From: Neofusicoccum parvum
Lineage: Eukaryota; Ascomycota; Dothideomycetes; Botryosphaeriales; Botryosphaeriaceae
Assembly (NCBI GenBank): GCA_020912385.1
Contig: CP087214.1
Coordinates: 1-64,000 of the forward strand
Length of the DNA stretch: 64,000 nt
Reading direction: 5' to 3'
Shown here piece after piece: positions 891 to 55,461 of the stretch (position 1 is the stretch's first letter; every line of letters starts with the position of its first letter). A program made the position numbers and the translations under genes. The notes below the pieces were generated by a model, which was not told the DNA's origin, searched no databases, and saw only the letters and a program-made list of their open reading frames with translations.

Positions 891-894
891 CTTC

Positions 895-1800: not shown

Positions 1801-1832
<32 letters not shown>

Positions 1833-2150: not shown

Positions 2151-2290
2151 ATACATCACCCTCACTCTACTTAAAATTACTAACCCTCACCCTACTCAAA
2201 ATTACTAACCCTTACCCTACTTAAAATTGCTAACCCTCATCCTACTTAAAATTACTATCCCTCACCCTACTCTTACTAACTGTTAAAAAC
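2151..2290. repeat. Interstitial degenerate telomeric tract
   Basis: Four or five copies of CTAACCCTCACCCTACT with ACTTAAAATTA spacers, in the same orientation as the terminal telomere. The tract separates TLH copies T1 and T2. That resembles the telomeric sequence found between tandem Y' elements of yeast and suggests T2 was once the chromosome end. Confidence 0.75.
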
Positions 2291-2960: not shown

Positions 2961-3154
2961 TTCACCTCTTTTATATATCACTTTATATCTGTATTCAATT
3001 CCATTTAATTCTACTCATATAGTACATCCAGTTATTATTATTCCTAAAAATCTATCTTTCTTGTTTATTCCCACTCTTTTCAACTATTACTCCTCTATTA
3101 GTTCCATCTTACTAGCTCTACCTACTAGCTAGCCCTATCTATCTATTAGCTTTA

Positions 3155-6100: not shown

Positions 6101-8508
6101 CGAAGATGTTGCGGTGCCCTCCCTTGGCCGTGTTGCTGTGCCTGATGCTGAGAATCTCCGGCCCTCTCGCCGGCTGCCCACCGGTGATGTGCATCAGCAG
6201 CAGCAGCTTCTCCCTAAACTCGGCCACCTGCGCTGCATATGCATCCACCGCCTGCCTGCTGATGCCTGAGCTCGTGTTTTTCCTGGTGAACCTCTTCCTC
6301 ACAGCAGTGATTCCTATGATCCTGTTGAACAGCCAAGTGTTCCCGTCTGCTAGCAGCCTGGTGCGCTGGTCCCGCAGAAAGCTCCACCCTCTGCGCTCCT
6401 CGGCTGGGTTGTCCCTGATGGAATGCCACGGCACTGCTGGCACGTCCATTTCCCCATGCTCTTTCTTGTGGCTGCTGTGGCCGCCAAACAGCAGCTCCTG
6501 GAGCAGCAGCTGGCGACTGTCGTTCAGCAAGCCGTGCACCATGCCCCTGAACTTGGCCATGGTGAACTGGATGCCCTGGTACAGCAGCTGCTCCCGCCCA
6601 TTCCATCCCACATGGCCCTTGGTGGTGGTGTTGTAGTGGATCTTCATCCCATAAGTGCGCAGATCCAGTATCCACTGCATGGGACTGTGGCTGCCTCGGA
6701 TCATGAAGCTGTCCATCATCTTGGTCACCAGCTCCAAGCAGCTCATCTTCATCTGGCTGCGCTGGCTGCGCTGGCTGCGCTGGCTGCGCTTGCTGCGCCC
6801 ACTGCTGTCCCTGGCGCTGCCCTGGCCGCTGTTCCTGCTGCTGCCCTGGCCGCTGCTGGTCCTGCTGCTGGCGCTGTCCTGGCCACTGCTGCTCTGGCCG
6901 GCGCTGCTCTGGCTGCTGCTGCTCCTGCCGCCCTGGCTGCGCCCGCTGCGCCCACTGCTGTCCCTGGCGCTGCCCTGGCCGCTGTTCCTGCTGCTGTCCT
7001 GGCCACTGCTGCTCTGGCCGGCGCTGCCCTGGCCGGCGCTGCCCTGGCCGGCGCTGCTCCTGCTGCCCTGGCTGCTGCTGCTGCTCCTGCCGCCCTGGCT
7101 GCGGCTGCTGCTACTGCTGCTGCCAGCATCGCCTCCACCATAACCGCCAGCGCCGTCCTCCTCCTCCTCCTCCTCCTCCTCCTCCTCCTCCTCCTCCTCC
7201 TCCTCCTCCTCCTCCTCAAAGTCCCATGCGCTGCCCCCACTGCTGAACTCCTCCCCACCATCCTCCTCCCCTTCTGCTGCTGCTGCTGCTGCTGCTGGAC
7301 CCACCATCTCCAGCGCCTTCTGCACCACCATGAAGCGCCCCACCTTGATGATGGCCGACAGAATCGCAGTGTACAGACCCGGCTCCCTCCAGCCGGTGGG
7401 CGTGACCCCCTGCACCGCCAGAGCGCAGACCAGAGCGCTGTCGTACTCGCGCTGCGTGATCCTCTGGTTCAGCAGTTCAATGCAAAAGTCCAAGCACGCC
7501 TTCTGGATCCCGGACAGCTTTGGTGGCAGCTGCTGCTGCTGCTGCTCTTCTGAATCAGCTCCTTCTTCTTCATTATCATCATTATCACTTCTTCCTCCCT
7601 CTTCTTCCTCGCTTCCTTCATCTCTTCCTCCCCCTTCTTCTTGCTTTGCAGCTTGCTCCGCCTCCTCCATCAGCCTAGTGAACGCCCTGGACTGCCTGCG
7701 GGTGAACCTGTACTCTGGCCTTCTCCAGTCATGCTCTTCCTGCTGCTGCCCCTGCTGCTGCTGCCGCTGCTGCTGCGTCCTGACGAAGAACATCAGCACC
7801 TGCTTCCACGCCCTCGACCTGTCCGCGACCGCGTTTTCCTCCATGTACGGCTGCAGCGGGTGGTACCGGTTCTGGTGCTTCTCCGTCCTCATCAGCTCCA
7901 TGCGGATGAATATGCCGACCTGCTGGGTCACCGCCTGCTGGCCGATGCGCGCAACCTCGTCCATGGCTTTCCAGATGGCCGCTGCCGCCGGCTCCTCCTC
8001 CTCCTCTGGCCTGTCCGGGTTGGCGTTGGGCTCCTCAACCGACGCTAGCAGATCGTCGCGGTCCAGCCGCGCCAGATACGGCAGCCACTGCGTCCTGTCC
8101 AGCCACGGGCTGACCTCGTCCTTCTCTCCTTCCTCGATGGTGGCCCGGGCCCGCTTCTCCAGCTCCTCCCAGTTCTGGTTCGCCTTGTTCCACGCCTGCT
8201 GCCACAGCTGCTCCCCTCCTCCCTCCCCTCTCTCCCCTCCCTCCTGGGCGGGCTGCGCCTGGTCCTCCTGCTGCGCTTGCTCCTCTGGCTGGCACACTTC
8301 AAAGTACTGCGAGCCGTGGAAGGTGGGGAAGAAGCGCTGGCAGTAGACCTGCTTTACCGCCTCTTGGAACCTCTTATTCAACCCCTCTTCCACCATCCTG
8401 CTCTGCCGGCCTTTGCCTCCTCCAATCGACCATCCGTGCTCGGTGCGCCAGTGCTCTTTCATCATCCTTTCATTCCTGCAGACGTACTGGCAGCTGCTAC
8501 TATTACTG

Positions 8509-8554
<46 letters not shown>

Positions 8555-8825
8555 GGTCCTTCTGGCACAGCAGCCCGTCCTTGAACAGTGGCAGCTCTGT
8601 GACGGGCCGTTGCACCCGGGCTGGCACTTCCAGCTCGCTCGAGAATGCAATCAAGCCATGCCAGCTTCTAACCTCACCACCGACCAGCTCCGCCTGCTTC
8701 CGGCCCATCCGGTGGTGTTTCCCCCGCAGATGGCCTTCCACCTGGTCCGGCCAGACGGCGTGCCGGCACTCCCTGCAGATCGCGAGCCGGTATTCCGCCT
8801 GGTGATAAAAGTACGCTGTCGCCAT
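3155..8825 (-). pseudogene. TLH copy T2: telomere-linked RecQ helicase, inactivated
   Basis: Nearly collinear with T3. The N-terminal 1063 codons (5634-8825) are open and hold the zinc fingers, the recombinase-like block and Ser/Glu/SGQ-rich linkers; helicase motifs follow at 3944-5099. It is broken by in-frame stops at 5634, two near 5490-5502, 5334, 5310, 5133, 3944, about 3768 and 3452, plus a frameshift in the Gly/Arg-coding GGA/CTC repeat at about 4650-4760. Each stop lies where T3 has CAG, CAA or TGG, so all fit CpA-to-TpA change on one strand or the other. Trinucleotide tracts (CTC at 7155-7215, CTG at 8515-8550) differ in length from T3. The first break removes the last recombinase-like residues and the whole helicase. 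Confidence 0.85.
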
Positions 8826-9126
8826 TTGGTGCGCTAGCTAGTATTGTCTTGCTAATACTGAAAGTTGCTAGAGAGAATGATGCTGGTGTGAGAAAGCTCG
8901 TAAATGCTGCTGCTACTACTACTGCTACCGCCGCTGCTGCCGCCGCCGCCGCACGGATCACCCTTACCCCATCAAAAAACCTCAACCCTAACCCTACTCT
9001 TACCCCAAGTGGCTGGTTTTCTCACGACGCAGCGGTCGGATTTTAAGGTGGCTCATATAAAAAGTGGTCGCAGAGCCACGCTTGGAAATCTGACCGAGTG
9101 TAGACTCGATCCGAGCACCTCGCTCC
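8826..9126. other. 5' flank of TLH T2 with short internal telomeric motif
   Basis: Upstream region of the minus-strand TLH, near-identical to 22344-22644 beside T3. It contains a GCC/GCT trinucleotide tract (8905-8955), two perfect CCCTAA units at about 8981-8994 in telomere orientation, and AT-rich TATATAA-like sequence near 9050. A promoter for TLH is expected here but no element can be assigned with confidence. Confidence 0.5.
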
Positions 9127-9237
9127 AAATCCAGTGCGGTAAATCCAGTGCGGTGCGCGTCCAGCCCACCCGACGATTCTTTCCCACACAATCTAAATCC
9201 AGCGCGGTCGCGCTGGATTTGCGTCTTTCAGTTAGGG
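9127..9237. promoter_or_regulatory. TLH terminal iterons, palindrome and TTAGGG terminus (T2)
   Basis: Two tandem copies of AAATCCAGTGCGGT (9127-9140, 9141-9154) are followed by a third, variant copy that forms one arm of a perfect 12-bp inverted repeat: AAATCCAGCGCG at 9195-9206 and its complement at 9209-9220, with a 2-bp centre. The unit ends CTTTCAGTTAGGG at 9225-9237. The set is conserved beside T3 and, in diverged form, T4. This layout fits a protein-binding or recombination site at the element end; that function is inference. Confidence 0.6.
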
Positions 9238-9618
9238 TTTACCTTGAGGACAAGAGTGGGTAAGGATAAGCGAGAAGAGAAGTGGGATGTTCACGTGCGG
9301 ACTGGAATGCACGCGATAAGACTCGTTACCAGCAATGAGTGAGATTGCTACTTTGAGTTGACCACAAAGGGTCAAGTATCTAGCTAAGTGAGTGTGCTTA
9401 TATACTGTAGGAAAGCTATGACAATCTGGATGTCCCTCATGGATATGAGGGTTGGATGGCCCTCATGGATTTGAGGGTTGGATCTGTTCTGATCCAATGT
9501 GGGTCCTTGTGGAGCCGCACGTGGTGTAGCACGTGATGTCTTCCTTGGCGTTTGTTCTTGCGCCCGTTGTCCGCGCTTCCCGTCTTCCCTCATCTTAGTC
9601 GGACTGGGGTTCGTAACA
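9235..9618 (-). repeat. 3' LTR of chromovirus
   Basis: 384 bp, identical by eye to the copy at 15989-16372. On the minus strand it begins TGTTACGAAC. The other end is ambiguous by up to four bases because the flanking telomeric AGGG matches the LTR edge. It contains two tandem GAGGGTTGGAT-type repeats near 9445-9485. Confidence 0.93.
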
Positions 9619-9630
9619 CTACCTCCCCCC
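9619..9630 (-). other. Polypurine tract of chromovirus
   Basis: On the minus strand the bases directly before the 3' LTR read GGGGGGAGGTAG. This is the expected position and composition of the plus-strand primer of a retrotransposon. Confidence 0.75.
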
Positions 9631-9722
9631 TTAAGGATCGTCGGCCCGACGATTTCCCCGTGGGATTATATCTTTCTGTCCGTGGGTTTCTTCCTTCCTC
9701 TTACTCCCTATGTTCCTTCGCC

Positions 9723-10496
9723 ATGTCCAAGCGTAAGCGTATTGACCAGAAGGCTGAGCGAGAGTCTTTAGCTGCGAAGATCGATCTTTTTGGTGAAGTA
9801 ATGCCGGTTCCCTGTAGTGCTTGCCTCCTCGCGAATGCGAAGCGTAAGGCAGGTACGCCCGAGGTTGTTTGCCGGATGGATCTTGGTTATGACCGTTGTG
9901 GCGAGTGTGCTCGTAGGGGTTTAACCGCCTGTGATGGGAGCGGTTTGGAGGATTCGGACTGTTTGTTTCTCTCCTCTTTTTGGTTGGCCTTTTTATTGAC
10001 TTCCCTAGTTTCCCGATTGAAGCGCGCCATCGACAAGGCTGAGGCCGAGGAGCAGATGGTTCTCGACCTGCTTCAGAGGAATATGAGTCGATTACAGCGT
10101 GTACGGAAACAACGGGAATTACTAAAGCGGCGTGGTAGCTTGATGATTTCCAAGAAGGCTCAGACCGTCGAGGAGTTAGAAGAGTTGGCTCGGTTAGAGG
10201 ACGCTGCGGAGGCTGGGGATGTTATTGACCCTGAGGGCGCTGAGGAGGGGCGATCGCCAAAGCGTTTACGTGGCGCGTCCTCAGCTGATACCGTTGCGGG
10301 TCCGTCCCGGTCCGTTGGGTCTCCTGGGGCTGGTTCTGGTGCTGTGCCGCCCGAGGGTTCCGAGCTGGTTGATCAGGCGCGGCAGTCTCCGCTTCCTGAG
10401 TATAGTCCCGCCTTTTTCGAGGGTTACGTTCCCTTCGAGTATTCTGAGACGGCGGCAGTGGGCGTTCTGGGTTTCGACGGTGGAACTCATCAATGA
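9723..10496 (+). CDS. Antisense ORF of the chromovirus, Cys-rich protein
   Basis: Lies on the strand opposite gag-pol and overlaps the last 275 bases of pol. From the ATG at 9723 it gives 257 codons: a basic start (MSKRKRIDQKAE), a cysteine cluster (CSAC ... VCR ... CGEC ... AC, residues about 36-78) that could bind zinc, a basic coiled-coil-like stretch, and an acidic Pro/Ser-rich tail. Bases 9960-10007 have the form of a 48-bp fungal intron (GTTTGT ... TTGAC ... CTAG) of length divisible by three; read through, it encodes an odd hydrophobic stretch, so splicing is likely. Antisense ORFs are known in some Ty3/gypsy lineages, but I do not recognise this protein. Transcription from the LTR on the opposite strand would be needed. 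Confidence 0.5.
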   Translation: MSKRKRIDQKAERESLAAKIDLFGEVMPVPCSACLLANAKRKAGTPEVVCRMDLGYDRCGECARRGLTACDGSGLEDSDCLFLSSFWLAFLLTSLVSRLKRAIDKAEAEEQMVLDLLQRNMSRLQRVRKQRELLKRRGSLMISKKAQTVEELEELARLEDAAEAGDVIDPEGAEEGRSPKRLRGASSADTVAGPSRSVGSPGAGSGAVPPEGSELVDQARQSPLPEYSPAFFEGYVPFEYSETAAVGVLGFDGGTHQ

Positions 10497-13400
10497 GTTC
10501 CCTGCATCCGTCGCAGTTTTCTGGTGGTTCCCAGGTATTGTCCCAATCTCCTTCCCACTGGAGGAGGTATCTGAACTGACCGTTGATGTAGCCACTGTCG
10601 AGTACCTTTTCCACGACCCAGTCTTGGTTTTCGTCGGCGTCGGGATTCTCTGGTCTCATTTCTTCTGTTTGGCGCAACGGGGTGGCGTTGGCTGGTGCGG
10701 GTTCGAGTAGTGCTACATGGAAGACTGGGTGTATCCGCATTGTTTTTGGCAATTTAAGGCGGAAGTTTAATTTTCCTAGTTTCTCTGCGATCTCGAATGG
10801 CCCGATTTTCTTGAAATCCAGCTTGTTGTTTGGTCGTTTGGTCTTGATGTTTTTCCTGAGGAGGTAGACCTTATCCCCCTTCTTAAGCTTTGGTGCCTCC
10901 TGGTGCCGTCTGTCGTAGTACCTTGACATGAGGTATCTGTTGAATTCGAGGTCGAGCTGGAGTTGCTGATGGAGCGCTTTTAGTTGGTCGGCTTTAAGGA
11001 TTCCTTTCTGGGCGAGGCTTTGGCTCGGGATTGGCTCTTGGTAGGCGGTTGGTTCGAATCCGTAGTTGGCGTAGAACGGAGACTCCTGTATGGCTGATGC
11101 CTTTGCGCTGTTGTACGCGAACTGAGCCAGTGGGAGTAGTTCAACCCAATTGTCTTGGCTGTAGTTCAGGTAGCAGCGGAGGTATTGCTCTAGAGTCTGA
11201 TTCGTTCGTTCCGTCTGGCCGTCTGTTTGCGGGTGTGCCGTTGTTGAGAGCTTGTGTTTGCTTCCGAGTTGCCGTGTGAGGGTTTGCCAGAAGTGAGAGG
11301 TGAACAGGCGATCCCTATCCGATACCAGCTCGTCTGGTAGCCCGTGATTGCCGAGGATTGTCCTGAGGAATGTATATGCCAATTCCTCTGCGTTTGCCGA
11401 TTTGAGGTAGGGTAGGTAGTAGGCGTACTTCGTGAGTCTGTCTACTATCACGAGGATGGAGTCGTATTTGATCTTCGTAAGCGGTTCTTCTGACCAGGGT
11501 AGATCCGTAATGAAGTCGAGGGTTATCGACTGCCATGGCCTTTCTGGCGCCGCTAGGGGCTGGAGGTTTCCATATGGGGCGTGTCTCGAGGCCTTGCTAC
11601 GTAAGCATAGGTCGCACTGTGAGATTACTGCCTTGACGGTTCTTCTCAGTCCTGGGAAGTAGAAGTTTCTCGTGATTCGCTCGATCGTTTTTTCGATGCC
11701 TTGGTGTCCGTGTGCTGGAGCTTCGTGGAGGTCCTTGACGAGTGTTTCACGGAGTTTAGTAGGTACGTAGACCAGTCCTAGGAATAGGAGGGTTCCTTCT
11801 TCGTCCCTAGTAATCCGAGGGTCGTCTTCCTGTTTTCCAAGTTCTTCTGCACCGGTATCTCCTTCGTAGGCTTCTCGAATTTGTTGTGTCCAGGCATTGC
11901 CTTCTCGGCGTATTGCTGGCGCTAGGGCCCTTATAGGGGTGAGCGTACCGTCTGCCGCTTCTTCCAATACCGCGGGTTGATGCCCGGGTTTTCCTGTACT
12001 ATGGTCTGCCCTTCTGCTTAGCGCGTCTGCGCGAGCATTCTCTGATCCCTTTCTGTAGGTAATCTTCATGTCGTAGGATGCTAGCTCTTCTGCCCATCTC
12101 ACCTGTCTCCTTGTGAGTTCCTTGGTGGTGGTGAAGTAAGAAAGGTTCTTGTGGTCGCAATAGACCATGACCTGGTGCGTAGCTCCTTCTAGATAGTGTC
12201 TCCATTCCTTGAACGCGGTAACGATGGCTAGGAGTTCCTTATCGTGGACGTCGTAATTGAGCTCTGGGGGCGTCATTTTCCGAGAGTAGTACGCGATCGG
12301 GTGGAGGCGACCTTGTTTGTCTGGTTGACTAATACAGGCGCCAATGGCGTAATCCGATGCGTCAGTTTCAAGGGTAATGGGTAGGTCTGGGTTATAGATG
12401 CCCAAGATAGGCGCCTCGCAGAACATTCTCTTAAGCGAGTCGAACGCCTCTTGCTGTACTTGTTCCCATTTAAACCCATGTTCCTTTCGGGTGAGCCTGG
12501 TTAAGGGTTCCGTCACCTTGGAGTAGTTCATGATGAACTTACGGTAAAAGTTAGTAAATCCAAGGAAGGACTGCACTTCTTTAACCGTCTTAGGTACGGG
12601 CCAATCCCTTATTGCGTCGAGTTTGGTTTCGTCCATGCCAATATGTCCAGGGGTGATGATAAACCCTAGGAACTCTGTCCGTTGTGTGTACCATTCGCAT
12701 TTTTCTGGCGCGATTTGGAGATCCTTTTCCTGTAGTGCCTTTAGGACTTGATGGATATGCTTGGTATGTTCTTCAAGCGTGTCTGAGTAGATGATGATGT
12801 CGTCCAGGTAAGCCGTACAAAATACATCCAAATACGGACGTAGGGTATCGTTGACTAGGCTCTGGAATGTGCCTGGGGCGTTGGTAAGCCCAAAAGGCAT
12901 GACGGTATACTCGAAGTGTCCTAGGCGTGTTCTAAACGCGGTTTTCCATTCTTCTCCTTCCTTCATGCGGACTAGGTAGTATCCTTCACGGAGGTCGAAC
13001 TTCGTAAAGTATTTTGCCGTCCTGAACTTGTCCTGTAGTTCGTCTATCCTTGGGAGTGGATACCGGTTCTTCACCGTGATGTCGTTTAGCTGCCGGTAGT
13101 CGACGCAGAGTCGTAGCTTGCCGTTTTTCTTCGGGACGAATAGAATAGGGTATCCTGCCGGTGATGATGACGGGCGGATGTATCCTCTTTCTAAATTCTT
13201 GTCGATGTATTCCCTTAAAGCCTCGAGCTCCTTTCCTGATAGGGAGTAGATTGGCTTGAACGCTGGCTGCGTTCCTGGGATAAGGGGTATCTCGTGGTCC
13301 CATGGCTTATGCTCTGGTAGCTGTCCTTTGCCTCGTTCTTGGAAGATCCTTGGATATTTCCAGAATTCCTGAGGTACCGTTTCTAGCTCTGGTATCGGTG

Positions 13401-14349
13401 CTGATTCTTTCTTAGTAGGCCTTATAAATCCGTCCTGGTCGCCGTGCCTGACTGCCGAAATGCCTTTCCCTAGGGAGCCTGCCTTCCTGTAGGCATTCCT
13501 TATGGCGTATCCCTGGTTGATCCTCTGGGGGCAGTCCCCTCCGACTGGCTTTGGGTTGTTATTCTCTTCTGGTGAGACCCCGTTGTGGGAGCTTCGTTGC
13601 ATCTGTGCGACGATTCTTTGCTCCATTTCTCGGCTAGGCTTAACGTAAACCACGTACGCTTTCTCACCTCTGTGCCTCATACGCCTTAGCGCCGCAGCGG
13701 ATATTTCCCTTATTTCGACCGGGTCTTTCTGCCTCTGGCGGCTCAGGCCTTCTTGGCCCTGGCGGCTCTCGGTGGCGGGTTTCCCTGTGCTACGTTTCGT
13801 GCTTGCTAAGTGGCGCTTGCATGCTTCGTTTGGGAACGTAATCTCGTTCGTTCCCCAGCGGATATGGGGCTCGTGTGTCCTGAGCCATGGTATGCCTAGG
13901 ATGATATCGTGTCCTGGCATCTTCGTGATGTCGAGGTTGATTCTTTCTCGGTGGTTGTTGATGGTGACCGTTGACTGGTCTGTTTCCATCCTAACCCATC
14001 CATCGCCGTAGTCTGCGGCTGATCCATCTACGGTTGAGAGGCGATAGGGCTCGCTCTTAGTAGCGTAGTGTAGGCCGTGCTTAATGACGAAGGTGTGGCT
14101 GATGAGGTTTGCACTTGCTCCACTATCGATCATAGCTCTAGCTGGCTTATTGTTGATTCGTACAGGGACTACAAGTTGTCTCCATAGATCTGGTCCGGTG
14201 AGTGATGTGCCGTTCGCTGTGCGTGATACCTGGTTGAGGGACCTAGTTCCCGGCCCCTCCTGTGGGTCCTGACATTCAGGGAGGCCGTCTAGTTTTTTGA
14301 CTGCTGGGAGTCTTGAGCTGGGTACTCGCCTTCTGGGACTTGGATCCAT
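10222..14349 (-). CDS. pol: Chromovirus Pol polyprotein
   Basis: 1375 aa from an ATG at 14349. Order: aspartic protease with DSGA at residues 75-78; reverse transcriptase with YLDD at about 514-517; RNase H (TDAS at about 660); integrase with an H-x-H...C-x2-C zinc domain (GHQGIEKT ... CDLCLRSK, about 890-930) and D,D,E catalytic residues near 945, 1010 and 1047; a GPF module (KIGPFEI); and a C-terminal chromodomain (about 1243-1300, DWVVEKVLDSGY ... WEGDWDNTWEP). The chromodomain identifies a chromovirus, a group whose integrase can be guided by histone marks. It overlaps gag by 61 bases in the -1 frame, so it may be expressed by -1 frameshifting or from its own ATG. All catalytic residues I could check are present. 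Confidence 0.95.
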   Translation of the reverse strand: MDPSPRRRVPSSRLPAVKKLDGLPECQDPQEGPGTRSLNQVSRTANGTSLTGPDLWRQLVVPVRINNKPARAMIDSGASANLISHTFVIKHGLHYATKSEPYRLSTVDGSAADYGDGWVRMETDQSTVTINNHRERINLDITKMPGHDIILGIPWLRTHEPHIRWGTNEITFPNEACKRHLASTKRSTGKPATESRQGQEGLSRQRQKDPVEIREISAAALRRMRHRGEKAYVVYVKPSREMEQRIVAQMQRSSHNGVSPEENNNPKPVGGDCPQRINQGYAIRNAYRKAGSLGKGISAVRHGDQDGFIRPTKKESAPIPELETVPQEFWKYPRIFQERGKGQLPEHKPWDHEIPLIPGTQPAFKPIYSLSGKELEALREYIDKNLERGYIRPSSSPAGYPILFVPKKNGKLRLCVDYRQLNDITVKNRYPLPRIDELQDKFRTAKYFTKFDLREGYYLVRMKEGEEWKTAFRTRLGHFEYTVMPFGLTNAPGTFQSLVNDTLRPYLDVFCTAYLDDIIIYSDTLEEHTKHIHQVLKALQEKDLQIAPEKCEWYTQRTEFLGFIITPGHIGMDETKLDAIRDWPVPKTVKEVQSFLGFTNFYRKFIMNYSKVTEPLTRLTRKEHGFKWEQVQQEAFDSLKRMFCEAPILGIYNPDLPITLETDASDYAIGACISQPDKQGRLHPIAYYSRKMTPPELNYDVHDKELLAIVTAFKEWRHYLEGATHQVMVYCDHKNLSYFTTTKELTRRQVRWAEELASYDMKITYRKGSENARADALSRRADHSTGKPGHQPAVLEEAADGTLTPIRALAPAIRREGNAWTQQIREAYEGDTGAEELGKQEDDPRITRDEEGTLLFLGLVYVPTKLRETLVKDLHEAPAHGHQGIEKTIERITRNFYFPGLRRTVKAVISQCDLCLRSKASRHAPYGNLQPLAAPERPWQSITLDFITDLPWSEEPLTKIKYDSILVIVDRLTKYAYYLPYLKSANAEELAYTFLRTILGNHGLPDELVSDRDRLFTSHFWQTLTRQLGSKHKLSTTAHPQTDGQTERTNQTLEQYLRCYLNYSQDNWVELLPLAQFAYNSAKASAIQESPFYANYGFEPTAYQEPIPSQSLAQKGILKADQLKALHQQLQLDLEFNRYLMSRYYDRRHQEAPKLKKGDKVYLLRKNIKTKRPNNKLDFKKIGPFEIAEKLGKLNFRLKLPKTMRIHPVFHVALLEPAPANATPLRQTEEMRPENPDADENQDWVVEKVLDSGYINGQFRYLLQWEGDWDNTWEPPENCDGCRELIDEFHRRNPERPLPPSQNTRRERNPRKRRDYTQEAETAAPDQPARNPRAAQHQNQPQETQRTGTDPQRYQLRTRHVNALAIAPPQRPQGQ

Positions 14350-15800
14350 TCAGTACGCGTGCCATCTTGGTGGGAGCGCCGTTCGTAGGGCTTGTTATCC
14401 CGGATTTCCCATTCGACCATGTAACAGTCTTTGATGTCGATGCCTGGGATCCATATTCCTTTGGCTGGGTTGCCATTTTCGGCGGGGAGCTTCCACGTGA
14501 GGCCTCGGTTGCTGGCTTGGCTAAGCATCGTATCGAGGAGCTCTTCTTCCTGTAGGGGCTCCTTCTGTTCCTCGGTTCCTAGATTTTCCTCTGGTTCCGG
14601 GGTGCTGTCGTATATTTCCCCTGTATCGCTGTTGACCAGTTCCTCGTCCTTTGGGAAGTCGTCGATAAAGTCATCGATCTCTATTACTTCCTCATTTCGG
14701 GTTGCTGGCGCGATTTGCCGCTTCCTAGGCTTCTTTGGGTACCACCCTGTGGCGTCTTTATCGCTTTGGTGGGTTCGACAGTTGTCGTTGTAGCACGCTG
14801 TCCAGCTTAGGGAGTCGTGGTTGTTCAGCTGTCGTGCTGTTACCGCAGTTTCTCGGTTTACCGCGGAGGAGTTCTTCTCCTTTCGGTTACGCGGGTTTTG
14901 CGGGCAGTTGTGGCCGTATTTCCAGTCTTTACCGCAGTGGATGCAGAGCTTATCCTTGAAGCGCTGCTTCTGTTCTTCTGTCCACTCTGGGCGTGGGCCT
15001 CGGCTTTTATTGTTCCTGTCCTTGCCTCGGCGTGGGTTCTGGTTGTTTCCTCGGTTGACGTTATCAATTTCCATGGCGTCTCCTCCTTCCTGCGTATGTC
15101 TTGGGCGTGCTGGCCGCGTTGTGTTGGCTGGGTAGTGCTCGGAGCGTCTTTCCCAGAAGCGGTCGTCGAGTCGCCTAGCGAGTTCGATCATGTCGTCGAG
15201 TTTTTCAGGGTAGGAATGGAAGGCCATGGCGTCTTTGATATTGGGCTTGAGTCCCTTGTAGAAGTGGTCCCTTTGTGCTTGATCTGACCATCCTTCAAGG
15301 AAGGCGGCTGCCTGCCTAAAGTTGGAGGTATAGTCGGCCACTGACCCCTTCTGTTGGATTCCCATGATCTTCTGGGTTGCTTGTCGGACTTCATCGACGT
15401 CGTTGAATGCCCGTTTTAACTGAGCCACGAATTTGCCGTAGTCGTTAAACATATCCTTAGTAGTCTGGGACTGTGCCGTCTTGGGTTTGTGGAGATGTTC
15501 GTTGAGATAGGGTTCGAACCATCGTTCTGCCGTTCCGCGTAGGTAGGTTGAGGCGAAGAGGACCTTGTCTTCTTCATACTCGAATTGGTCGCTATAGATC
15601 CTGATATACCGTTCGAGCTGGGATACGAAGCCTTGTAGCTTCTGACGGTTCCCGTCGAAGGTATCGGGGTTTCTGATTTTGACCTTGCGTGCCCTTGGTG
15701 TTGCCTGTTCTTCTTGGAGCTCCTGGAGCTGTTCGAGGCGGCCTTCGAGAGCCTTGATCGTGGCGACGAGATGCTCCATTGTTGGCTGTGGGGCTGTCAT
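14289..15800 (-). CDS. gag: Chromovirus Gag
   Basis: The start is placed at the ATG at 15800 (MTAPQPTMEHLV); the open frame extends further upstream but without another ATG. About 503 aa. A heptad-like leucine/glutamine stretch (about residues 10-35) is followed by a retrotransposon capsid domain (residues about 60-215, containing YLRGTAERWFEPYL), then a single zinc knuckle of the C-x2-C...GH-x-C type (CIHCGKDWKYGHNC, about 287), and an acidic C-terminus. Gag forms the virus-like particle and binds element RNA. It ends inside the start of pol, giving a 61-base overlap. Confidence 0.92.
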   Translation of the reverse strand: MTAPQPTMEHLVATIKALEGRLEQLQELQEEQATPRARKVKIRNPDTFDGNRQKLQGFVSQLERYIRIYSDQFEYEEDKVLFASTYLRGTAERWFEPYLNEHLHKPKTAQSQTTKDMFNDYGKFVAQLKRAFNDVDEVRQATQKIMGIQQKGSVADYTSNFRQAAAFLEGWSDQAQRDHFYKGLKPNIKDAMAFHSYPEKLDDMIELARRLDDRFWERRSEHYPANTTRPARPRHTQEGGDAMEIDNVNRGNNQNPRRGKDRNNKSRGPRPEWTEEQKQRFKDKLCIHCGKDWKYGHNCPQNPRNRKEKNSSAVNRETAVTARQLNNHDSLSWTACYNDNCRTHQSDKDATGWYPKKPRKRQIAPATRNEEVIEIDDFIDDFPKDEELVNSDTGEIYDSTPEPEENLGTEEQKEPLQEEELLDTMLSQASNRGLTWKLPAENGNPAKGIWIPGIDIKDCYMVEWEIRDNKPYERRSHQDGTRTEWIQVPEGEYPAQDSQQSKN

Positions 15801-15988
15801 GTTGTCGTCCTGCTTGTCAGTTCGCTTTTGCAGGGATATACTTCTCTTTCCTTCTCGGCGGACCTTCTTGGCGGAACTTGAGCGCCAAGACGGTCTGTCC
15901 TTCTCTTGCAAGGAGGGTGGTCAAAGTGTAACGGAGTGCCTTCTACTACACGACTTCGGAGTCGTCGGGTAGGAGTTGGGTAACCGAA
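15801..15988 (-). other. Chromovirus leader between 5' LTR and gag
   Basis: 188 bases containing the untranslated leader. The bases right after the LTR (minus strand TTCGGTTACCCAACTCC) are where a tRNA primer-binding site should be. They do not start with TGG and I cannot match a tRNA 3' end, so the priming mode (tRNA or self-priming) is undecided. Confidence 0.5.
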
Positions 15989-16372
15989 GGGTTTACCTTG
16001 AGGACAAGAGTGGGTAAGGATAAGCGAGAAGAGAAGTGGGATGTTCACGTGCGGACTGGAATGCACGCGATAAGACTCGTTACCAGCAATGAGTGAGATT
16101 GCTACTTTGAGTTGACCACAAAGGGTCAAGTATCTAGCTAAGTGAGTGTGCTTATATACTGTAGGAAAGCTATGACAATCTGGATGTCCCTCATGGATAT
16201 GAGGGTTGGATGGCCCTCATGGATTTGAGGGTTGGATCTGTTCTGATCCAATGTGGGTCCTTGTGGAGCCGCACGTGGTGTAGCACGTGATGTCTTCCTT
16301 GGCGTTTGTTCTTGCGCCCGTTGTCCGCGCTTCCCGTCTTCCCTCATCTTAGTCGGACTGGGGTTCGTAACA
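15989..16372 (-). repeat. 5' LTR of chromovirus
   Basis: Same 384-bp sequence as 9235-9618. On the minus strand it runs from TGTTACGAAC at 16372 to the leader at 15988. Right flank is TTCAAGTTTTA, the interior of the TLH simple-repeat tract. Confidence 0.93.
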
Positions 16373-17177: not shown

Positions 17178-20100
17178 CTACAGCTTTCTCTGAAGCAGTT
17201 CTGCATCCGCATACACCTGTTGTGTCTGCCTGGCCTGCCTTACCCTTATTCCTACCTGCTGCTGCTGCTGCCTTTGAAACTCCTGCCTATCTAATTCTCT
17301 TTGTTGCGTACTCTGCTCTTCCTCCTGCTGTCTTTCCTGCCGACTTTCCTGCCGACTTTCCCGCTGATTTTCCTGCTGCTTCTCTCTTTGCTGCTGTCGT
17401 ATCCTCTGCTGCTGCTCTCTTTGCTGCTGATTTTCCTGCTGCTGCATCCTCTGCTGCTGCTCTCTTTGCTGCTGCTCCCTCCACTGCTGCCCCTGCTGCC
17501 GCTGCTGGTACTGGTCTACCCTCTGTTCTTCCTCTACCTCCCTGTCTACCTCTTCCACCTCATCTACCTCTTCCATCTCATCTACCTCCTCTACCTCCTC
17601 CTCCTTATTATTATCATCATTATCATCATCCGTGATCTCTCGCCTAGACTCCCTGCTCCTTCTACAAAAATCACACTTTTCTTCCCCCTCCTCCTGCCTG
17701 CATTCTATCCGCCTAAAACTACCATCTAAAAACTCGTCCATCACCGTTCTCCTACACAGTCCCCCATCCAGATACTGCCTTACCAGCCGGTCATCGCTCT
17801 TCTCCCCCCCCTGAACCATCACTGCTCTGCTGGCCAGTCCATCCCTTCCCGCCCTGCCGCTCTCCTGCGCGTAGTCCAGAAAATCCCGCGGCTCATCCGT
17901 GTGGATGATGAGCCTGATGCCTGGAATGTCAATCCCCATGCCCAGCGCGCTGGTGGCCACCACTACACGCACCACTCCCGCCTTGAAGTCCTCTAGCACC
18001 TCCTTCTTCCTAGCTTCTGACATCTTGCTGTAAAATGCCTCGCACTGGAACAGCCCTGCGTCCACCAAGCTCTTCACCCTGGTCACTGTGTTGCAGTAGA
18101 TGACCACCTTTCCTTCCACCGTTGCCTGTAGTTCCTCTTCCACCATCTCTTCTATTTTCCTATTCTGCGCCTCCTTCCCTCCTTGTCTTCCTCGCCATCC
18201 TCCCCCTCTCCCTCCTCCCCCTCCTCTCCCTCCTCTCCCTCCTCTCCCTCCTCTCCCTCCTCTCCCTCCTCTCCCTCCTCCATTCTCCACCTCCACCTCC
18301 AACTCCACCCCCACCACCTGGTAGCTGATGTTTCTGCGGGTAGTGACCGCCCTGAACACCACCACCTCGGCCGCAGTCCAGCCCATCCTGCGCCACAGCT
18401 CCGCCTCTTTGCTGGGTGGCAGCGTCGCTGTGAGCAGAACCATCTGCGTTTCTGCCGCCATGAGCTTCCCCAGCTGCTGCAGCTGCTTGCGGAAGTCCAC
18501 CTGGTCGTTCAGCACCACGTGGCACTCGTCGATGATGATCCTGTCCAGCTGCCTCATCGCCCTGAGCCGGTTCAAAAACGTCATGAACTCGTCGCTCAGT
18601 GCTGCCTCTGGCGTGACCAGCACGATGGACTCCGCGTCTGGTGGCCGCCTCGCCTCCCATTCTGCACAGCTGATGCCCAGCTTGCTGCAGCGCTCTTTCA
18701 TGTCCGCTCGCAGCGCGATGAGCGGTACCACCACCACCGTTGTTCCTCCTGGCTCCGTCCAAGCCGGCAGCATGAACAAGATGCTTTTCCCAGCCCCAGT
18801 CGGCATCACTGCCACCACCGGGCTCACTCCAGCCTGGATGGCGGTCACCGCCTCTTCCTGGATGCTGCGGAACTCGGCTTCCTTTCCCATCAATCTTTGC
18901 AGCTGCTCCTTCACGTTGGCCCTCTTCAGCCTTGCCCAGCGGTCCAGCCGCTCCTCGTCAGCGTCATCCTCAAACGGGCAGCGCTTCCTCTTCCTGGAAG
19001 CAGCCGGTTCCTGGCTTTTAAATGCCGACTGGAAGCCCAAGAAGCGGTGCCAGTCGGTACTGGAAGCACGGAACAGCAGCCTCTTCTCCGCCACCACACC
19101 TGCCTGCTCCATCATCCCACGCGCGTAGATCAAGCCTGCAGTGTGGGAAGTATGTCCTGCCTGGGCGTCTGCAATGGCTGCTGCTGCCCGGTCTTCTCCC
19201 ACCTCCATCTGCTGCTGCTCCTGCTCATTCCCATTCTCTCCCCCCTCCTCGTCTACCCTGAACGCGCTGGAGCCGCGCATGAACCGCCTGCTGATGCCGA
19301 TAGCGACGTCCCTGTACGCCCTGACCGTCAGCTCCTGGCCTAAGCCGATCCTGCTCTCCTTCTTCATCGCCTCCCTCATGCGCTCCGTCGTCCACCTCTT
19401 CTCCCCCGCCTCCGCCGGCCACATGTGGGCTGAGATCTGCTCGCTCCCACGTACTGCTGCCAGCATGCGCTGGTGGAATGGCAAGACTAGCCATAGATAC
19501 CACACCACCAGCTCGCCCACCTCCCTGGGCAGATACCTGTGGATCACCTTGACATCCCCGGACATGGCGTAGCCCTTGTGGTAGCGCGTGACGAACACAA
19601 CCAGCCCATCCTCCACGAAGATGTTGCGGTGCCCTCCCTTGGCCGTATTGCTATGCCTGATGCTGAGAATCTCCGGCCCTCTTGCCGGCTGTCCACCGGT
19701 AATGTGCATCAGCAGTAGCAGCTTCTCCCTAAACTCGGCCACCTGCGCTGCATATGCATCTACCGCCTGCCTGCTGATGCCTGAGCTCGCGTTTTCCCTG
19801 GTGAACCTCTTCCTCGCAGCAGTGATTCCCATGATCCTGTTGAACAACCAAGTGTTCCCGTCTGCTGGCAGCCTGGTGCGCTGGTCCTGCAGAAAGCTCC
19901 ACCCTCTGCGCTCCTCAGCTGGGTTGTCCCTGATGGAATGCCACGGCACTGCTAGCACGTCCATTTCCCTATGCTCTTTCTTGTGGCTGCTGTAGCCGCC
20001 AAACAGCAGCTCCTGGAGCAGCAGCTGGCGAGTGTCGTTCAGCAAGCCGTGCACCATGCCCCTGAACTTGGCCATGGTGAACTGGATGCCCTGGTACAGC

Positions 20101-22026
20101 AGCTGCTCCCGCCCATTCCATCCCACATGGCCCTTGGTGGTGGTGTTGTAGTGGATCTTCATCCCGTAAGTGCGCAGATCCAGTATCCACTGCATGGGAC
20201 TGTGGCTGCCTCGGATCATGAAGCTGTCCATCATCTTGGTCACCAGCTCTAAGCAGCTCATCTTCATCTGGCTGCGCTGGCTGCGCTGGCTGCGCTGGCT
20301 GCGCTGGCTGCGCCCACTGCTGTCCCTGGCGCTGCCCTGGCCGCTGTTCCTGCTGCTGCCCTGGCCGCTGCTGGTCCTGCTGCTGGCGCTATCCTGGCCA
20401 CTGCTGTCCTGGCCACTGCTGCTCTGGCCGGCGCTGCCCTGGCTGCTACTGCTCCTGCCGCCCTGGCTGCGCCCGCTGCGCCCACTGCTGTCCCTGGCGC
20501 TGCCCTGGCCGCTGTTCCTGCTGCTGTCCTGGCCACTGCTGCTCTGGCCGGCGCTGCCCTGGCCGGCGCTGCCCTGGCCGGCGCTGCTCCTGCCGCCCTG
20601 GCTGCTGCTGCTCCTGCCGCCCTGGCTGCTACTGCTGCTGCTACTGCTGCTGCCGCCAGCATCGCCTCCACCATAACCGCCAGCGCCGTCCTCCTCCTCC
20701 TCCTCCTCCTCCTCCTCCTCCTCCTCCTCCTCCTCCTTCTCAAAGTCCCATGCGCTGCCCCCACTGCTAAACTCCTCCCTACCATCCTCCTCCCCTTCTG
20801 CTGCTGCTGCTGCTGCTGCTGCTGGACCCGCCATCTCCAGCGCCTTCTGCACCACCATGAAGCGCCCCACCTTGATGATGGCCGACAGAATCGCCGTGTA
20901 CAGACCCGGCTCCCTCCAGCCGGTGGGCGTGACCCCCTGCACCGCCAGAGCGCAGACCAGAGCGCTGTCGTACTCGCGCTGCGTGATCCTCTGGTTCAGC
21001 AGTTCAATGCAAAAGTCCAAGCACGCCTTCTGGATCCCGGACAGCTTTGGTGGCAGCTGCTGCTGCTGCTGCTCTTCTAAACCAGCTCCTTCTTCTTCTT
21101 CATTATCATCATCATCATCACCATCACTTCTTCCTCCCTCTTCTTCCTCGCTTTCTTCTTTATCTCTTCCTCCCCCTTTCCCTTCTTCTTGCTTCTTTAC
21201 AGCTTGCTCTGCCTCCTCCATCAGCCTGGTGAATGCCCTGGACTGCCTGCGGGTGAACCTGTACTCTGGGCTTCTCCAGTCATGCTCCTGCTGCGTCCTG
21301 ACGAAGAACATCAGCACCTGCTTCCACGCCCTCGACCTGTCCGCGACCGCGTTTTCCTCCATGTACGGCTGCAGCGGGTGGTACCGGTTCTGGTGCTTCT
21401 CCGTCCTCATCAGCTCCATGCGGATGAATATGCCGACCTGCTGGGTCACCGCCTGCTGGCCGATGCGCGCAACCTCGTCCATGGCTTTCCAGATGGCCGC
21501 TGCCGCCGGCTCCTCCTCCTCCTCTGGCCTGTCCGGGTTGGCGTTGGGCTCCTCAACCGACGCTAGCAGATCGTCGCGGTCCAGCCGCGCCAGATACGGC
21601 AGCCACTGCGTCCTGTCCAGCCACGGGCTGACCTCGTCCTTCTCTCCTTCCTCGATGGTGGCCCGGGCCCGCTTCTCCAGCTCCTCCCAGTTCTGGTTCG
21701 CCTTGTTCCACGCCTGCTGCCACAGCTGCTCCCCTCCTCCCTCCCCTCTCTCCCCTCCCTCCTGGGCGGGCTGCGCCTGGTCCTCCTGCTGCGCTTGCTC
21801 CTCTGGCTGGCACACTTCAAAGTACTGCGAGCCGTGGAAGGTGGGGAAGAAGCGCTGGCAGTAGACCTGCTTTACCGCCTCTTGGAACCTCTTATTCAAC
21901 CCCTCTTCCACCATCCTGCTCTGCCGGCCTTTGCCTCCTCCAATCGACCATCCGTGCTCGGTGCGCCAGTGCTCTTTCATCATCCTTTCATTCCTGCAGA
22001 CGTACTGGCAGCTGCTACTATTACTG

Positions 22027-22072
<46 letters not shown>

Positions 22073-22343
22073 GGTCCTTCTGGCACAGCAGCCCGTCCTT
22101 GAACAGTGGCAGCTCTGTGACGGGCCGTTGCACCCGGGCTGGCACTTCCAGCTCGCTCGAGAATGCAATCAAGCCATGCCAGCTTCTAACCTCACCACCG
22201 ACCAGCTCCGCCTGCTTCCGGCCCATCCGGTGGTGTTTCCCCCGCAGATGGCCTTCCACCTGGTCCGGCCAGACGGCGTGCCGGCACTCCCTGCAGATCG
22301 CGAGCCGGTATTCCGCCTGGTGATAAAAGTACGCTGTCGCCAT
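17178..22343 (-). CDS. TLH T3: telomere-linked RecQ helicase with zinc-finger and recombinase-like N-terminal half
   Basis: 1721-aa open frame. Domains: C2H2-like finger (C17, C20, H32, H37/38); second finger after a poly-Ser run (about 112-130); low-complexity Glu, Ser/Gly/Gln and Arg-rich linkers (about 380-720); a block with tyrosine-recombinase-like residues R888, K923, R1011 (in RAYRD), H1064 and Y1073; then a RecQ helicase with Walker A PTGAGKS (K1186), DECH at 1272-1275, LTATLPP, ATSALGMGIDIPG and QESGRAGRDG (R1500), a RecQ-type four-Cys zinc site (about 1525-1560) and a Gln/Arg-rich tail. TLH genes are known multicopy subtelomeric genes in fungi, thought to act in telomere maintenance by recombination. 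RecQ proteins unwind DNA 3' to 5' using ATP. The recombinase reading is my inference. A TAG removes the last 172 residues but leaves the helicase whole. Confidence 0.9.
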
Positions 22344-22644: not shown

Positions 22645-22754
22645 AAATCCAGTGCGGTAAATCCAGTGCGGTGCGCGTCCAGCCCACCCGACGATTCTTT
22701 CCCACACAATCTAAATCCAGCGCGGTCGCGCTGGATTTGCGTCTTTCGGTTAGG
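22645..22754. promoter_or_regulatory. TLH terminal iterons, palindrome and TTTCGGTTAGG terminus (T3)
   Basis: Same arrangement as at T2: tandem AAATCCAGTGCGGT at 22645-22658 and 22659-22672, a 12-bp perfect inverted repeat at 22713-22738, and the terminus TCTTTCGGTTAGG at 22742-22754. The terminus is repeated at 23106-23118 on the far side of a LINE fragment, so it is also a target-site duplication. Confidence 0.65.
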
Positions 22755-23105
22755 GGAGAGATGGGGGGATGTTTCCTTTTTATTAGGTGGATGGAGCGGA
22801 TGGGAGGACCGGCACACTGGGAAACCAGTAGACGGTCCAAAGGAGAAGTGGAAGCCTAACTATACAGTAGTCAAGGCAGCCATTCAGTTCCTACAAAGAA
22901 CCGGGCGGTTCCGAGATGAACATGGGGAGGCTTACACATCGAACCCACCACAAGAGATGTAATGGCAGCGAAGGAAGTAAACAGATTGGACTAAGAAGTG
23001 AGAAGAGGCTAAAGAACAGGATAATGTAAGGCTAAAGAGAGGGACGGCTCTTATACTACCTAGAATGTATCGTAGCCTGACAGAATCAATCAATCAATCA
23101 ATCAA
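22755..23105 (+). mobile_element. LINE-C1: 5'-truncated LINE 3' end
   Basis: About 350 bases homologous to the end of LINE-C2 (25540-25892): the last codons of ORF2 (GERWGDV...FLLGGW type, as in LINE-B), a short 3' UTR with TCGTAGCCTG at 23070-23079, and a (CAAT)n tail. It is bracketed by a 13-bp duplication TCTTTCGGTTAGG. The strong 5' truncation is typical of LINE insertion by target-primed reverse transcription. Confidence 0.8.
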
Positions 23106-23118
23106 TCTTTCGGTTAGG

Positions 23119-24483
23119 CGTGACCCCCTACACCGCCAGAGCGCAGACCAGAGCGCTGTCGTACTCGCGCTGCGTGATCCTCTGGTTCAGCAGTTCAATG
23201 CAAAAGTCCAAGCACGCCTTCTAGATCCCGGACAGCTTTAGTGGTAGCTGCTGCTGCTGCTGCTCTTCTAAACCAGCTCCTTCTTCTTCTTCATTATCAT
23301 CATTATCATCATCATCACCATCACTTCTTCCTCCCTCTTCTTCCTCGCTTTCTTTATCTCTTCCTCCCCCTTCTTCTTCTTGCTTTACAGCTTGCTCCGC
23401 CTCCTCCATCAGCCTGGTGAATGCCCTAGACTGCCTGCGGGTGAACCTGTACTCTAGGCTTCTCCAGTCATGCTCCTGCTGCGTCCTGACGAAGAACATC
23501 AGCACCTACTTCCACGCCCTCGACCTGTCCGCGACCGCGTTTTCCTCCATGTACGGCTGCAGCGGGTGGTACCGGTTCTGGTACTTCTCCGTCCTCATCA
23601 GCTCCATGCGGATGAATATGCCGACCCGCTGGGTCACCGCCTGCTGGCCGATGCGCGCAACCTCGTCCATGGCTTTCTAGATGGCTGCCGCCGCCGCCTC
23701 CTCCTCCTCTGGCCTGTCCGGGTTGTTGGTGGTGTTGGGCTCCTTAACCGACGCTAGCAGATCGTCACGGTCCAGCCGCGCCAGGTACGGCAGCCACTGC
23801 GTCCTATCCAGCCACGGGCTGACCTCGTCCTTCTCCCCTTCCTCGATGGTCGCCCGCGCCCGCTTCTCCAGCTCCTCCCAGTTCTGGTTTGCCTTGTTCC
23901 ACGCCCGCTGCCACAGCTACTCCCCTCCTCCCTCCCCTCCCTCCCCTCCCTCCTGGGCGGGCTGCGCCTGGTCCTCCTCCTGCGGCGCTGGATCCGCCGG
24001 CTGGCAGACTTCAAAGTACTACGAGCCGTGGAAGGTGGGGGAGAAGCGCTGGCAGCGCACCCGCTTCGCTACCTTCCAAAACCTCTCCTCCAGACTCTCC
24101 TCCACCCTTCTGGCCAACCTGCCTTTACCACCTCCAAGCGACCACCCGTGCTCTTCGCGCCAGTGATCCTTCATGATCCTCTTGCTCCTACAGATATACT
24201 AGCAGCTGTTGGGCTCTCTTTGGCATAGCAGTCCATCCTCAAACAACGGTAGCTCCGCGATGGGCTGCTACACCCGGGCTGGCACCTGCAGCTCGCTTGG
24301 GGATATGATCAAGCCATACCAGCCTCCAACCTCATTTCCAACGAGTTCCGCCTACTTCCGGCCTATCCGGTGATGCTTCCCTCGTAAGTGACCTTCTACC
24401 TAGTCTAGCCACACCGCATACCTGCACTCCTTGCAGATCACGAGCTGGTATTCTACCTGGTGATGAAAGTAAGCTGACGCTAT
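23119..24483 (-). pseudogene. TLH copy T4: diverged N-terminal fragment
   Basis: Homologous to T3 20931-22343, that is the N-terminal ~470 codons with both zinc-finger regions and the start of the linker. It is cut off on the C-terminal side, so the recombinase-like block and helicase are missing. Many stops (for example at 23221, 23658 and in the first finger) come from CpA-to-TpA type changes, and the start codon itself is ATA instead of ATG at 24481-24483. It is clearly more diverged than T2 or T3 and is dead. Confidence 0.8.
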
Positions 24484-24892
24484 TTAGTACGCCAGTTAGT
24501 ATTTACCTAGCTGATGCTGAAAGTTGCTGGAGAGAATGGTGCTGGTATGAGAAAACTCGTAAATACTGCTAACTACTACTATTACCACTACTACTGCCCG
24601 CCGCCGCCGCCGCCGCCGCCGCCGCACGGATCACTCTTACCCCATCAAAAACCCTCAACCCTAACCCTACTGTTACCCTAAGTGGCTGGTTTCTCACGAT
24701 GCAGCGGTCGGATTTTAAGATGGCTTATATAAAAAGTAATCGCAGTGACGTGCTCTACAACTTGACCGAGTCTCGGCTATTTCTCTAAATCACGCCGCGG
24801 TAAATCACGCCGCGGTGAGCCGCCAACGTCCGACCCGGCGATTCCCCATACAAATTAAATGCCGCTGCGGTCGCGGCGGATTTGCACCTTTC
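24484..24892. promoter_or_regulatory. 5' flank and terminus of TLH T4 with variant iterons
   Basis: Diverged version of the TLH flank. It has a GCC trinucleotide tract (24598-24626) and short CCCTAA sequence (about 24658). The iterons are AAATCACGCCGCGGT in tandem at 24787-24801 and 24802-24816, and an imperfect palindrome lies at 24857-24883. Sequence has changed but layout, spacing and the GATTTGCACCTTTCGGTTAGG end are kept, which argues for selection on the arrangement. Confidence 0.55.
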
Positions 24893-25014
24893 GGTTAGGA
24901 TACCTTCAGGCCTTTAGGGTAGGATACCTTTAGGCCTTTAGGTTAGGATACCTTCAGGCCTTTGGGTTAGGATACCTTCAGGCCTTTGGGTTAGGATTTG
25001 CACCTTTCGGTTAG
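24893..25014. repeat. 24-bp tandem repeat with telomere-like core
   Basis: Four units of 24 bases (24893-24916, 24917-24940, 24941-24964, 24965-24988), each containing GGTTAGGATACC and AGGCCTTT, then a partial fifth that runs into GATTTGCACCTTTCGGTTAGG. That 21-bp end is the same as the one immediately left of the array (24879-24899), so the array sits between two copies of the TLH terminus. No spacer structure, so not a CRISPR array. Confidence 0.85.
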
Positions 25015-41835: not shown

Positions 41836-41847
41836 CATATATCTTAG

Positions 41848-55456: not shown

Positions 55457-55461
55457 AGCAG

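Follow-up and report, generated by a model that had tools for sequence, protein, structure and literature searches.

The window analysed here is a stretch of 64,000 nucleotides (G000:C9:1-64000) of the 18-contig, 44-Mb genome of Neofusicoccum parvum. It opens with a CCCTAA array (13-169) and carries T3 (P0001), a gene for a telomere-linked helicase (TLH) that joins an OrsD zinc-finger domain, a tyrosine-recombinase-like domain and a RecQ helicase in one protein (Table 1). Reading inward from the chromosome end, the order is a terminal cassette with the TLH T2, a Ty3-type retrotransposon, T3, a truncated 364-bp element start and a truncated divergent TLH, T4. Pfam recognizes OrsD (residues 6-131), DEAD (1160-1312) and Helicase_C (1399-1502) in T3, with nothing further at E up to 10, and the best solved relatives of the helicase in a PDB profile search are RecQ1 and RecQ5, then BLM and WRN. 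A RecQ-type helicase gene beside telomeres is what characterizes TLHs, and the genes described here fit this definition. Such genes at fungal telomeres have reportedly been in print since 1998, the original papers being, as is said, those of Sanchez-Alonso 1998, Gao 2002, Inglis 2005 and Salimi 2024; to our knowledge, no role has been agreed for them so far. The results presented below lead us to regard TLH, with somewhat better than even confidence, as the combined recombinase and helicase of a mobile cassette that is one-ended and forms telomeres.

Organization of the TLH cassette

The genome holds at least 27 TLH places. All of them lie no more than about 22 kb from a contig end, towards which the gene points; this number is a lower bound, as T2 is absent from the list and further pieces exist. 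Ten of the 27 places lack internal stops, and 13 match T3 at a rounded identity of 100%. When the loci were compared with 1.5 kb on each side, a common 5' start was found in all 27, preceded by the junction triplet CCT in 24 loci, TCT in two and CTT in one. The triplet is followed by AACCGAAAGAC in 24 loci and by small variants in three, and 23 distinct 16-base flanks precede the start. The sequence CCTAACCGAAAG occurs 84 times in the genome, compared with seven occurrences of a reversed-pattern control; 79 of the 84 lie less than 50 kb from a contig end, and 78 of these point to it. An end-pointing CCTAACCGAAAG is present within 60 kb at 32 of the 36 contig ends, and in 22 of the 32 cases the outermost copy is 9165-9280 bp away from the end. 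Two of the four ends that lack it, C7 left (L276) and C10 left (L268), carry variant-start TLHs. On the other side, AAATTACTAACCCTCACCCTA runs straight into telomere repeats at all nine left contig ends examined, and older elements lying below end at the CCT where the next element starts.

The common starts and the direct passage from AAATTACTAACCCTCACCCTA into the telomere therefore define the unit as a cassette, about 9.2 kb long, that has an exact 5' end on one side and the telomere on the other. A second exact end or a direct repeat was not found, the 3' side being telomere (nine ends) or truncated in a sample without a full-length internal copy. The first-pass annotation had called the TLH unit a candidate self-mobilising subtelomeric element, and this idea gains direct support because the exact 5' end adjoins many unrelated flanks at CCT.

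Several other readings of the outer part of the window were rejected. The segment 22756-23106 is not a short interspersed element with a target duplication, since other copies show a 3'-truncated element start with a CCTAACCGAAAG terminus. An insertion of the Ty3 element between T2 and T3 was dropped, as no target duplication was found and the empty-site test described below puts the T2 junction at a CCT of the long terminal repeat (LTR). The segment 746-1730 is not a separate TLH copy, because it falls inside the 9.2 kb of the terminal cassette.

Target triplet at unoccupied sites

In the empty-site test, the 120 bases before each junction were matched to window and own-genome loci for an unoccupied counterpart, at thresholds of at least 90% identity over at least 100 bases and with satellite flanks (AAGGTAT) dropped. 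This gave 21 distinct intact sites out of 41 junctions, L283 and L286 representing the same target in two element copies. The junction triplet of the unoccupied targets was CCT in 18, TCT in one and CCC in two, and at neighbouring positions no base exceeded 11 of 21 (binomial P about 2e-27 for CCT at 0.022 per position, two of the 21 sites being the same target). Three junctions with less similar relatives (80-83%) read CCT, TCT and AAC. The target of L264, which lies inside the recombinase region of another TLH, reads TCT, and so does its junction. Because a TCT target carries a TCT junction, the triplet would seem to belong to the target, and the element to begin at AAC. Moreover, L283, L286 and L289 place three element types, as judged by their first 14 bases, at one same CCT behind these three OrsD-recombinase copies, where the third reads TCT, as if cassettes were exchangeable at the junction.

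Relatives without RecQ

The window also contains P0123, a gene for an OrsD-recombinase protein without RecQ. A query with its residues 130-883, for which the 7996 candidates sharing most words (about 490-1545 residues) were scored, gave 352 relatives, the best 120 of which were listed. Together with P0123 these form the RecQ-less set; the TLH set consists of P0001 and the best 120 of the 419 proteins matched by T3 residues 700-1120. Most TLH-query matches listed have helicase domains, and their named sources are nearly all filamentous fungi; P0047, from a record of the plant Tanacetum cinerariifolium, is a TLH 59% identical in the recombinase region and perhaps reflects fungal contamination. 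By BLASTP, the RecQ part is present in 0/121 of the RecQ-less set and in 120/121 of the TLH set, the exception being P0094. The presence of RecQ on a FastTree tree of 236 sequences needs three changes by parsimony; therefore, the fusion has changed rarely. Within the RecQ-less matches, P0190 (Didymella keratinophila) has extra Pfam domains, which we take to be ankyrin-repeat models, through either a fusion or a gene-model error.

The own genome holds at least 12 OrsD-recombinase places (L278-L289), plus partial ones. Eight of them (L278-L281, L283, L285, L286 and L288) start with CTAAGATATATGCTC or CTAAGACCTATGCTC; L280 and L281 have a common flank and the flanks of the other six differ. L282 and L284 show shifted start variants, L287 has no leader, and L289 can be aligned there only to closer relatives. 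Several copies are cut where the next CCTAACCGAAAG starts. The OrsD-recombinase junctions with an unoccupied relative showed no clear CCT overlap (0-1 bp). The OrsD and recombinase domains thus accompany exact ends that begin with CTAA, and since the RecQ-less relatives have such ends too, an exact end does not require RecQ.

The recombinase-like domain

The first-pass annotation had named R888, K923, R1011, H1064 and Y1073 of T3 as a tyrosine-recombinase signature, and all five were found at these positions. The R-x-x-E context of the first Arg occurs in XerD and HP1 Int, but lambda Int, to which it had been likened, has R-x-x-D. The distance of nine residues from His to Tyr is common to TLH, lambda Int, XerD, HP1 Int and TelN, while Cre has Trp in the place of His (the residues compared being those which we take to be catalytic in these five enzymes). 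The replacement of the first His of HxxR by Arg holds for T3, but the family has mostly Ala or Gln there (108/121 in the TLH set).

The five residues are kept in the deep alignments, as the annotation had anticipated for a genuine recombinase. In the TLH set, R888, K923 and R1011 are each found in 121/121, H1064 in 119/121 (one Y, one gap) and Y1073 in 120/121 (one gap). The corresponding counts in the RecQ-less set are R 119/121 (one Q, one gap), K 119/121 (one R, one gap), R 113/121 (eight gaps), H 108/121 (13 gaps) and Y 108/121 (12 gaps, one P). An identity of 95% or more is reached by 67/252 alignment columns in the catalytic part, 93/358 in the helicase and 8/80 in OrsD; on this measure, the catalytic part is under constraint equal to that of the helicase. 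The order R, K, R, H/W, Y with nine residues between H/W and Y, characteristic of tyrosine recombinases, is found in the family.

For profile comparison (hhalign), four named enzymes and 152 of 160 loci were combined into a recombinase profile (n=156), after removal of segments that were shorter than 120 residues or had internal stops. The lambda Int scan, which yielded near-identical copies only, was not used for it. One locus of this survey, L123 (from a metagenome-assembled genome labelled 'Halobacteria archaeon'), carries a XerD-like gene with 58% identity to its E. coli counterpart, perhaps from a contaminant contig. Against a profile led by the RecQ-less relatives, all five residues fell on XerD R148/K172/R247/H270/Y279. 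Column shuffles paired at least four of the five in 0/200 cases, and the pairing with XerD is more than chance. With sparse columns dropped, the all-row profile brought R, R, H and Y into register, with K off by three residues, and the TLH-only profile left R1011 unpaired. Two separate predicted models rank with the tyrosine-recombinase/topoisomerase IB fold and not with an unrelated one. By prediction and conservation, the domain belongs to this fold with R-K-R-H-Y.

Family libraries gave no such assignment. No recombinase was matched when P0001, or sets of five to nine queries, were scanned with Pfam, PHROGs and NCBIfam; Pfam at E up to 10, with P0001 and nine related queries, gave no tyrosine-recombinase family, DUF3435 or Phage_integrase, and in Pfam no HUH/Rep domain was found in the same proteins. 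A PDB profile search with the P0123 alignment returned eight matches and no recombinase. A similar search with the T3 fragment alignment covered the best 60 of 261 matches, all of them helicases, and so excludes nothing.

Several observations weigh against an active recombinase in TLH. The His of HxxR is present in just 3/121 of the TLH set and 1/121 of the RecQ-less set, where the position is varied (N15 TelN likewise lacks it), and K, H and Y sit in poorly modelled segments of low pLDDT. The score of the profile alignment was not significant, 100/200 shuffles being equally high, and a T3-led profile paired correctly only at R888 and R1011. The Foldseek E-values of the models exceed 0.001 and are weak on their own. 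These E-values and the missing library match favour the view that the domain is not a recombinase and that the residues and the fold match coincide by accident. We consider this very improbable, since the two separate predictions, the way in which the fold matches rank and the five near-invariant residues with their order all speak against it.

The main rival explanation accepts the fold but has the recombinase retired to DNA binding only, the junctions arising at CCT from end joining or from microhomology-primed break-induced replication, with the help of RecQ. The three-base overlap suits microhomology priming, the copies at chromosome ends are homogenised, as the 13 identical ones indicate, most members lack the His of HxxR, and the models of the Lys and His/Tyr segments are poor. 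We find this explanation doubtful, since the five residues hardly vary, constraint on the domain matches that on the helicase, one fixed terminus on 23 flanks in all 27 loci would be unexpected for general repair, and exact ends also occur in the relatives without RecQ. The TLH recombinase domain itself probably makes the CCT joint.

End repeats and the OrsD domain

The TLH 5' end is followed by a palindrome and by two direct repeats in tandem. These tandem repeats have the form ACCGC-core-ATT(T), and the palindrome arms contain the same or nearly the same core, which differs between leader types: ACTGG/GCTGG in T3, GGCGTG/AGCGGC in T4, ACAGC in L266 and GGTCG in L276. The T4 palindrome is imperfect and was missed by the script, and the L266 arms lack ATTT. 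In the P0123 leader, two AAATCCAC(C/T)GCGC repeats stand at a similar place. Identity to T3 in residues 1-135, residues 136-350, recombinase and RecQ, respectively, is 91.5%, 94.1%, 100% and 100% for L266 and 80.2%, 89.5%, 97.7% and 98.6% for L276; T4, in which the recombinase part is absent, has 71.7% in residues 1-135 and 88.6% in 136-350. The OrsD domain of the T3-core copies L263, L264 and L268 is 99-100% identical to that of T3. The repeats thus vary between subtypes together with the OrsD domain, a pattern to be expected if a DNA-binding domain had co-evolved with its sites. A block swap would give the same pattern and is indistinguishable from co-evolution because the leader and OrsD are adjacent, which counts against our reading. 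The comparison nevertheless supports OrsD as the putative reader of the 5' end, binding both to the palindrome and to the tandem repeats there. A further leader type, with the palindrome GCTGTGCGATCGCACAGC and the same truncation point in all three copies, was seen in L259, L266 and L270.

The palindrome also bears on another rival, in which a different element-encoded or host activity recognizes it, through rolling-circle (Helitron-like) nicking or telomere-targeted retrotransposon machinery, and TLH is a passenger or helper. The combination of a helicase with a palindrome some 16 bp away from the terminus does recall Helitron ends, a likeness that favours this rival. We rate this rival as quite unlikely, because the Pfam scans showed no HUH/Rep domain and because LINE-like insertions are usually 5'-truncated and 3'-exact, whereas the TLH cassette is exact at 5' and truncated at 3'. 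In the available text of a report on Colletotrichum, subtelomeric units with a helicase and DUF3505 are classed among transposable element families (DHX, DTX-chim; PMC5576322), which would accord with this rival.

Other features of the window

The two LTRs of the Ty3 element (9234-9618 and 15988-16372) are 100% identical. TLH T2 is broken, its first open reading frame (ORF; 5634-8825, minus strand) ending after residue 1063, just ahead of the H/Y box. Up to 11 TAG/TAA stops were seen in other TLH copies of the genome, and these stops may well result from repeat-induced C-to-T mutation. A 2104-bp tandem duplication at 39734-43939, 100% identical, contains RNase H/reverse-transcriptase ORFs. A 24-bp satellite, CCTTTAGGTTAGGATACCTTCAGG, at 24887-24997 adjoins the T4 start, and related flanks occur at the TLH starts L253, L262, L265 and L274. 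Beyond the terminal CCCTAA array, L291, L296, L297 and positions 1-12 of the window show short stretches that are not telomeric, C/T-rich or otherwise, perhaps as an assembly artefact.

Table 1. Positions of the genes, domains, codons and element ends in the window
Feature	Position	Strand	Remarks
TLH T3 gene (P0001)	17178..22343	-	1721 residues: OrsD zinc-finger domain, tyrosine-recombinase-like domain, RecQ helicase
OrsD domain (PF12013), T3 residues 6-131	21951..22328	-	Pfam E 7e-18; proposed end-repeat reader
Tyrosine-recombinase-like domain, T3 residues about 737-1105	19029..20135	-	
R888 codon	19680..19682	-	First Arg
K923 codon	19575..19577	-	Beta-hairpin Lys
R1011 codon	19311..19313	-	Arg that ends HxxR; in T3 the motif also starts with Arg
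H1064 codon	19152..19154	-	
Y1073 codon	19125..19127	-	Proposed nucleophile
RecQ helicase core (DEAD + Helicase_C), T3 residues 1160-1502	17838..18866	-	Pfam
Exact 5' end of T3 cassette	22743..22754	-	CCT/AACCGAAAG; CCT is the target triplet
26-bp palindrome behind T3 5' end	22713..22738	-	AAATCCAGCGCG-AC-CGCGCTGGATTT
Two tandem 14-bp direct repeats	22645..22672	-	ACCGCACTGGATTT; resemble palindrome arms
T2 cassette, present chromosome end	1..9236	-	Telomere 13-169, 3' region, broken TLH T2
T2 5' end	9225-9236	-	CCT/AACTGAAAG; joined to Ty3 LTR
Ty3-type LTR retrotransposon	9234..16372	-	At T3 3' region, ending at T2 junction
3'-truncated start of another element type, 364 bp	22755..23118	-	CCTAACCGAAAGATTGATTG...
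T4, 3'-truncated divergent TLH	23119..24899	-	Own 5' end 24888-24899, variant repeat set
P0123, OrsD + tyrosine-recombinase-like gene without RecQ	36761..39412	-	883 residues
P0123 element leader	39699..39745	-	5' end CTAAGATATATGCTC at 39731-39745; two repeats AAATCCAC(C/T)GCGC
Second OrsD-recombinase copy, broken	55455..58406	-	Seven internal stops; 5' end about 58392-58406

Proposed mechanism

Tyrosine recombinases and topoisomerase IB leave a 3'-phosphotyrosine and a 5'-hydroxyl after cleavage, and the target of poxvirus topoisomerase IB is (C/T)CCTT. The joining of a YCT 3' end to an AACC 5' end fits this chemistry. In the mechanism we propose, the recombinase would cleave at YCT, with Y1073 holding the 3' phosphate, which would then be passed to the AACC end of a TLH cassette, at its 5' hydroxyl. 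The old distal end would be lost and the cassette telomere would become the new chromosome end; a second junction would be unnecessary because the cassette carries its own telomere. RecQ might open the end or help to copy the donor, which is a guess. A topoisomerase IB-like activity, fused to RecQ and serving host telomere metabolism (torsion relief or junction resolution) and not mobility, is an improbable alternative; relative to poxvirus-type topoisomerase IB, the TLH element differs in having an end with candidate recognition repeats.

Because an exact-ended cassette is attached in many places, and in nearly all of them at CCT, these chromosome ends resemble pieces of a mobile element. The chances seem to us about even that this is a new class of mobile element, in which a diversifying OrsD zinc finger reads the repeats of its own end and guides a recombinase-RecQ fusion, CCT is cut, the distal sequence is replaced by a telomere-bearing cassette, and most chromosome ends of such a fungus are selfish-element parts. 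The recombinase domain, exact end, target triplet and candidate binding repeats make the 'subtelomeric helicase' a testable mobile-element hypothesis, and offer a direct route by which chromosome ends, home of fast-evolving fungal genes, could be cut and rebuilt.

Comparison with known systems

The available texts describe the TLHs of Magnaporthe, Fusarium oxysporum, Ustilago and Metarhizium and the DHX_G198-type units of C. higginsianum as having a RecQ gene within about 10 kb of telomeres (PMC5576322, PMC12857005, PMC11499160). The C. higginsianum units, with a helicase and DUF3505 (a name also given to an OrsD relative in the database matches of our RecQ-less search), are single copies in the same orientation between telomere and unique sequence (PMC5576322). 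As far as these descriptions go, and compared by description only, a recombinase domain, an exact 5' end, a CCT target and end repeats are not among their features. The literature covered also included PMC10799480 (reference-list matches) and PMC8381367. A description of TLH as a tyrosine recombinase was not found in the open-access literature, as judged by the titles and abstract openings listed; most subscription papers and bioRxiv fall outside this scope, and the novelty is provisional. The telomeric retrotransposons MoTeR and FoTeR are described as residing at chromosome ends, many of their copies being truncated (PMC12857005). TLH resembles them in location and in its many truncated copies, but they are reverse-transcriptase elements and TLH has no reverse transcriptase, and its exact end is the 5' one.

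TLH shares with Xer and Cre the predicted fold of the catalytic domain, the R-K-R-H-Y order (W for H in Cre) and the nine-residue spacing before Tyr. It differs from them in the HxxR His, which is mostly absent, in the fusion with OrsD and RecQ, in an R-K gap of 35 as against 24-28 residues and in the three-base target. Telomere resolvases (N15 TelN, TelK, TelA) make hairpin telomeres at the centre of a palindrome, whereas the TLH junction lies about 16 bp from the palindrome and the telomeres are ordinary CCCTAA arrays. The HUH Rep domain that marks Helitrons is absent from TLH in Pfam. Cryptons and Starships are eukaryotic tyrosine-recombinase elements in which the recombinase gene adjoins one end. 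The TLH cassette likewise has its recombinase-like gene next to one end but, unlike them, gives no DUF3435 or Phage_integrase match, carries RecQ and has a telomere as its other end.

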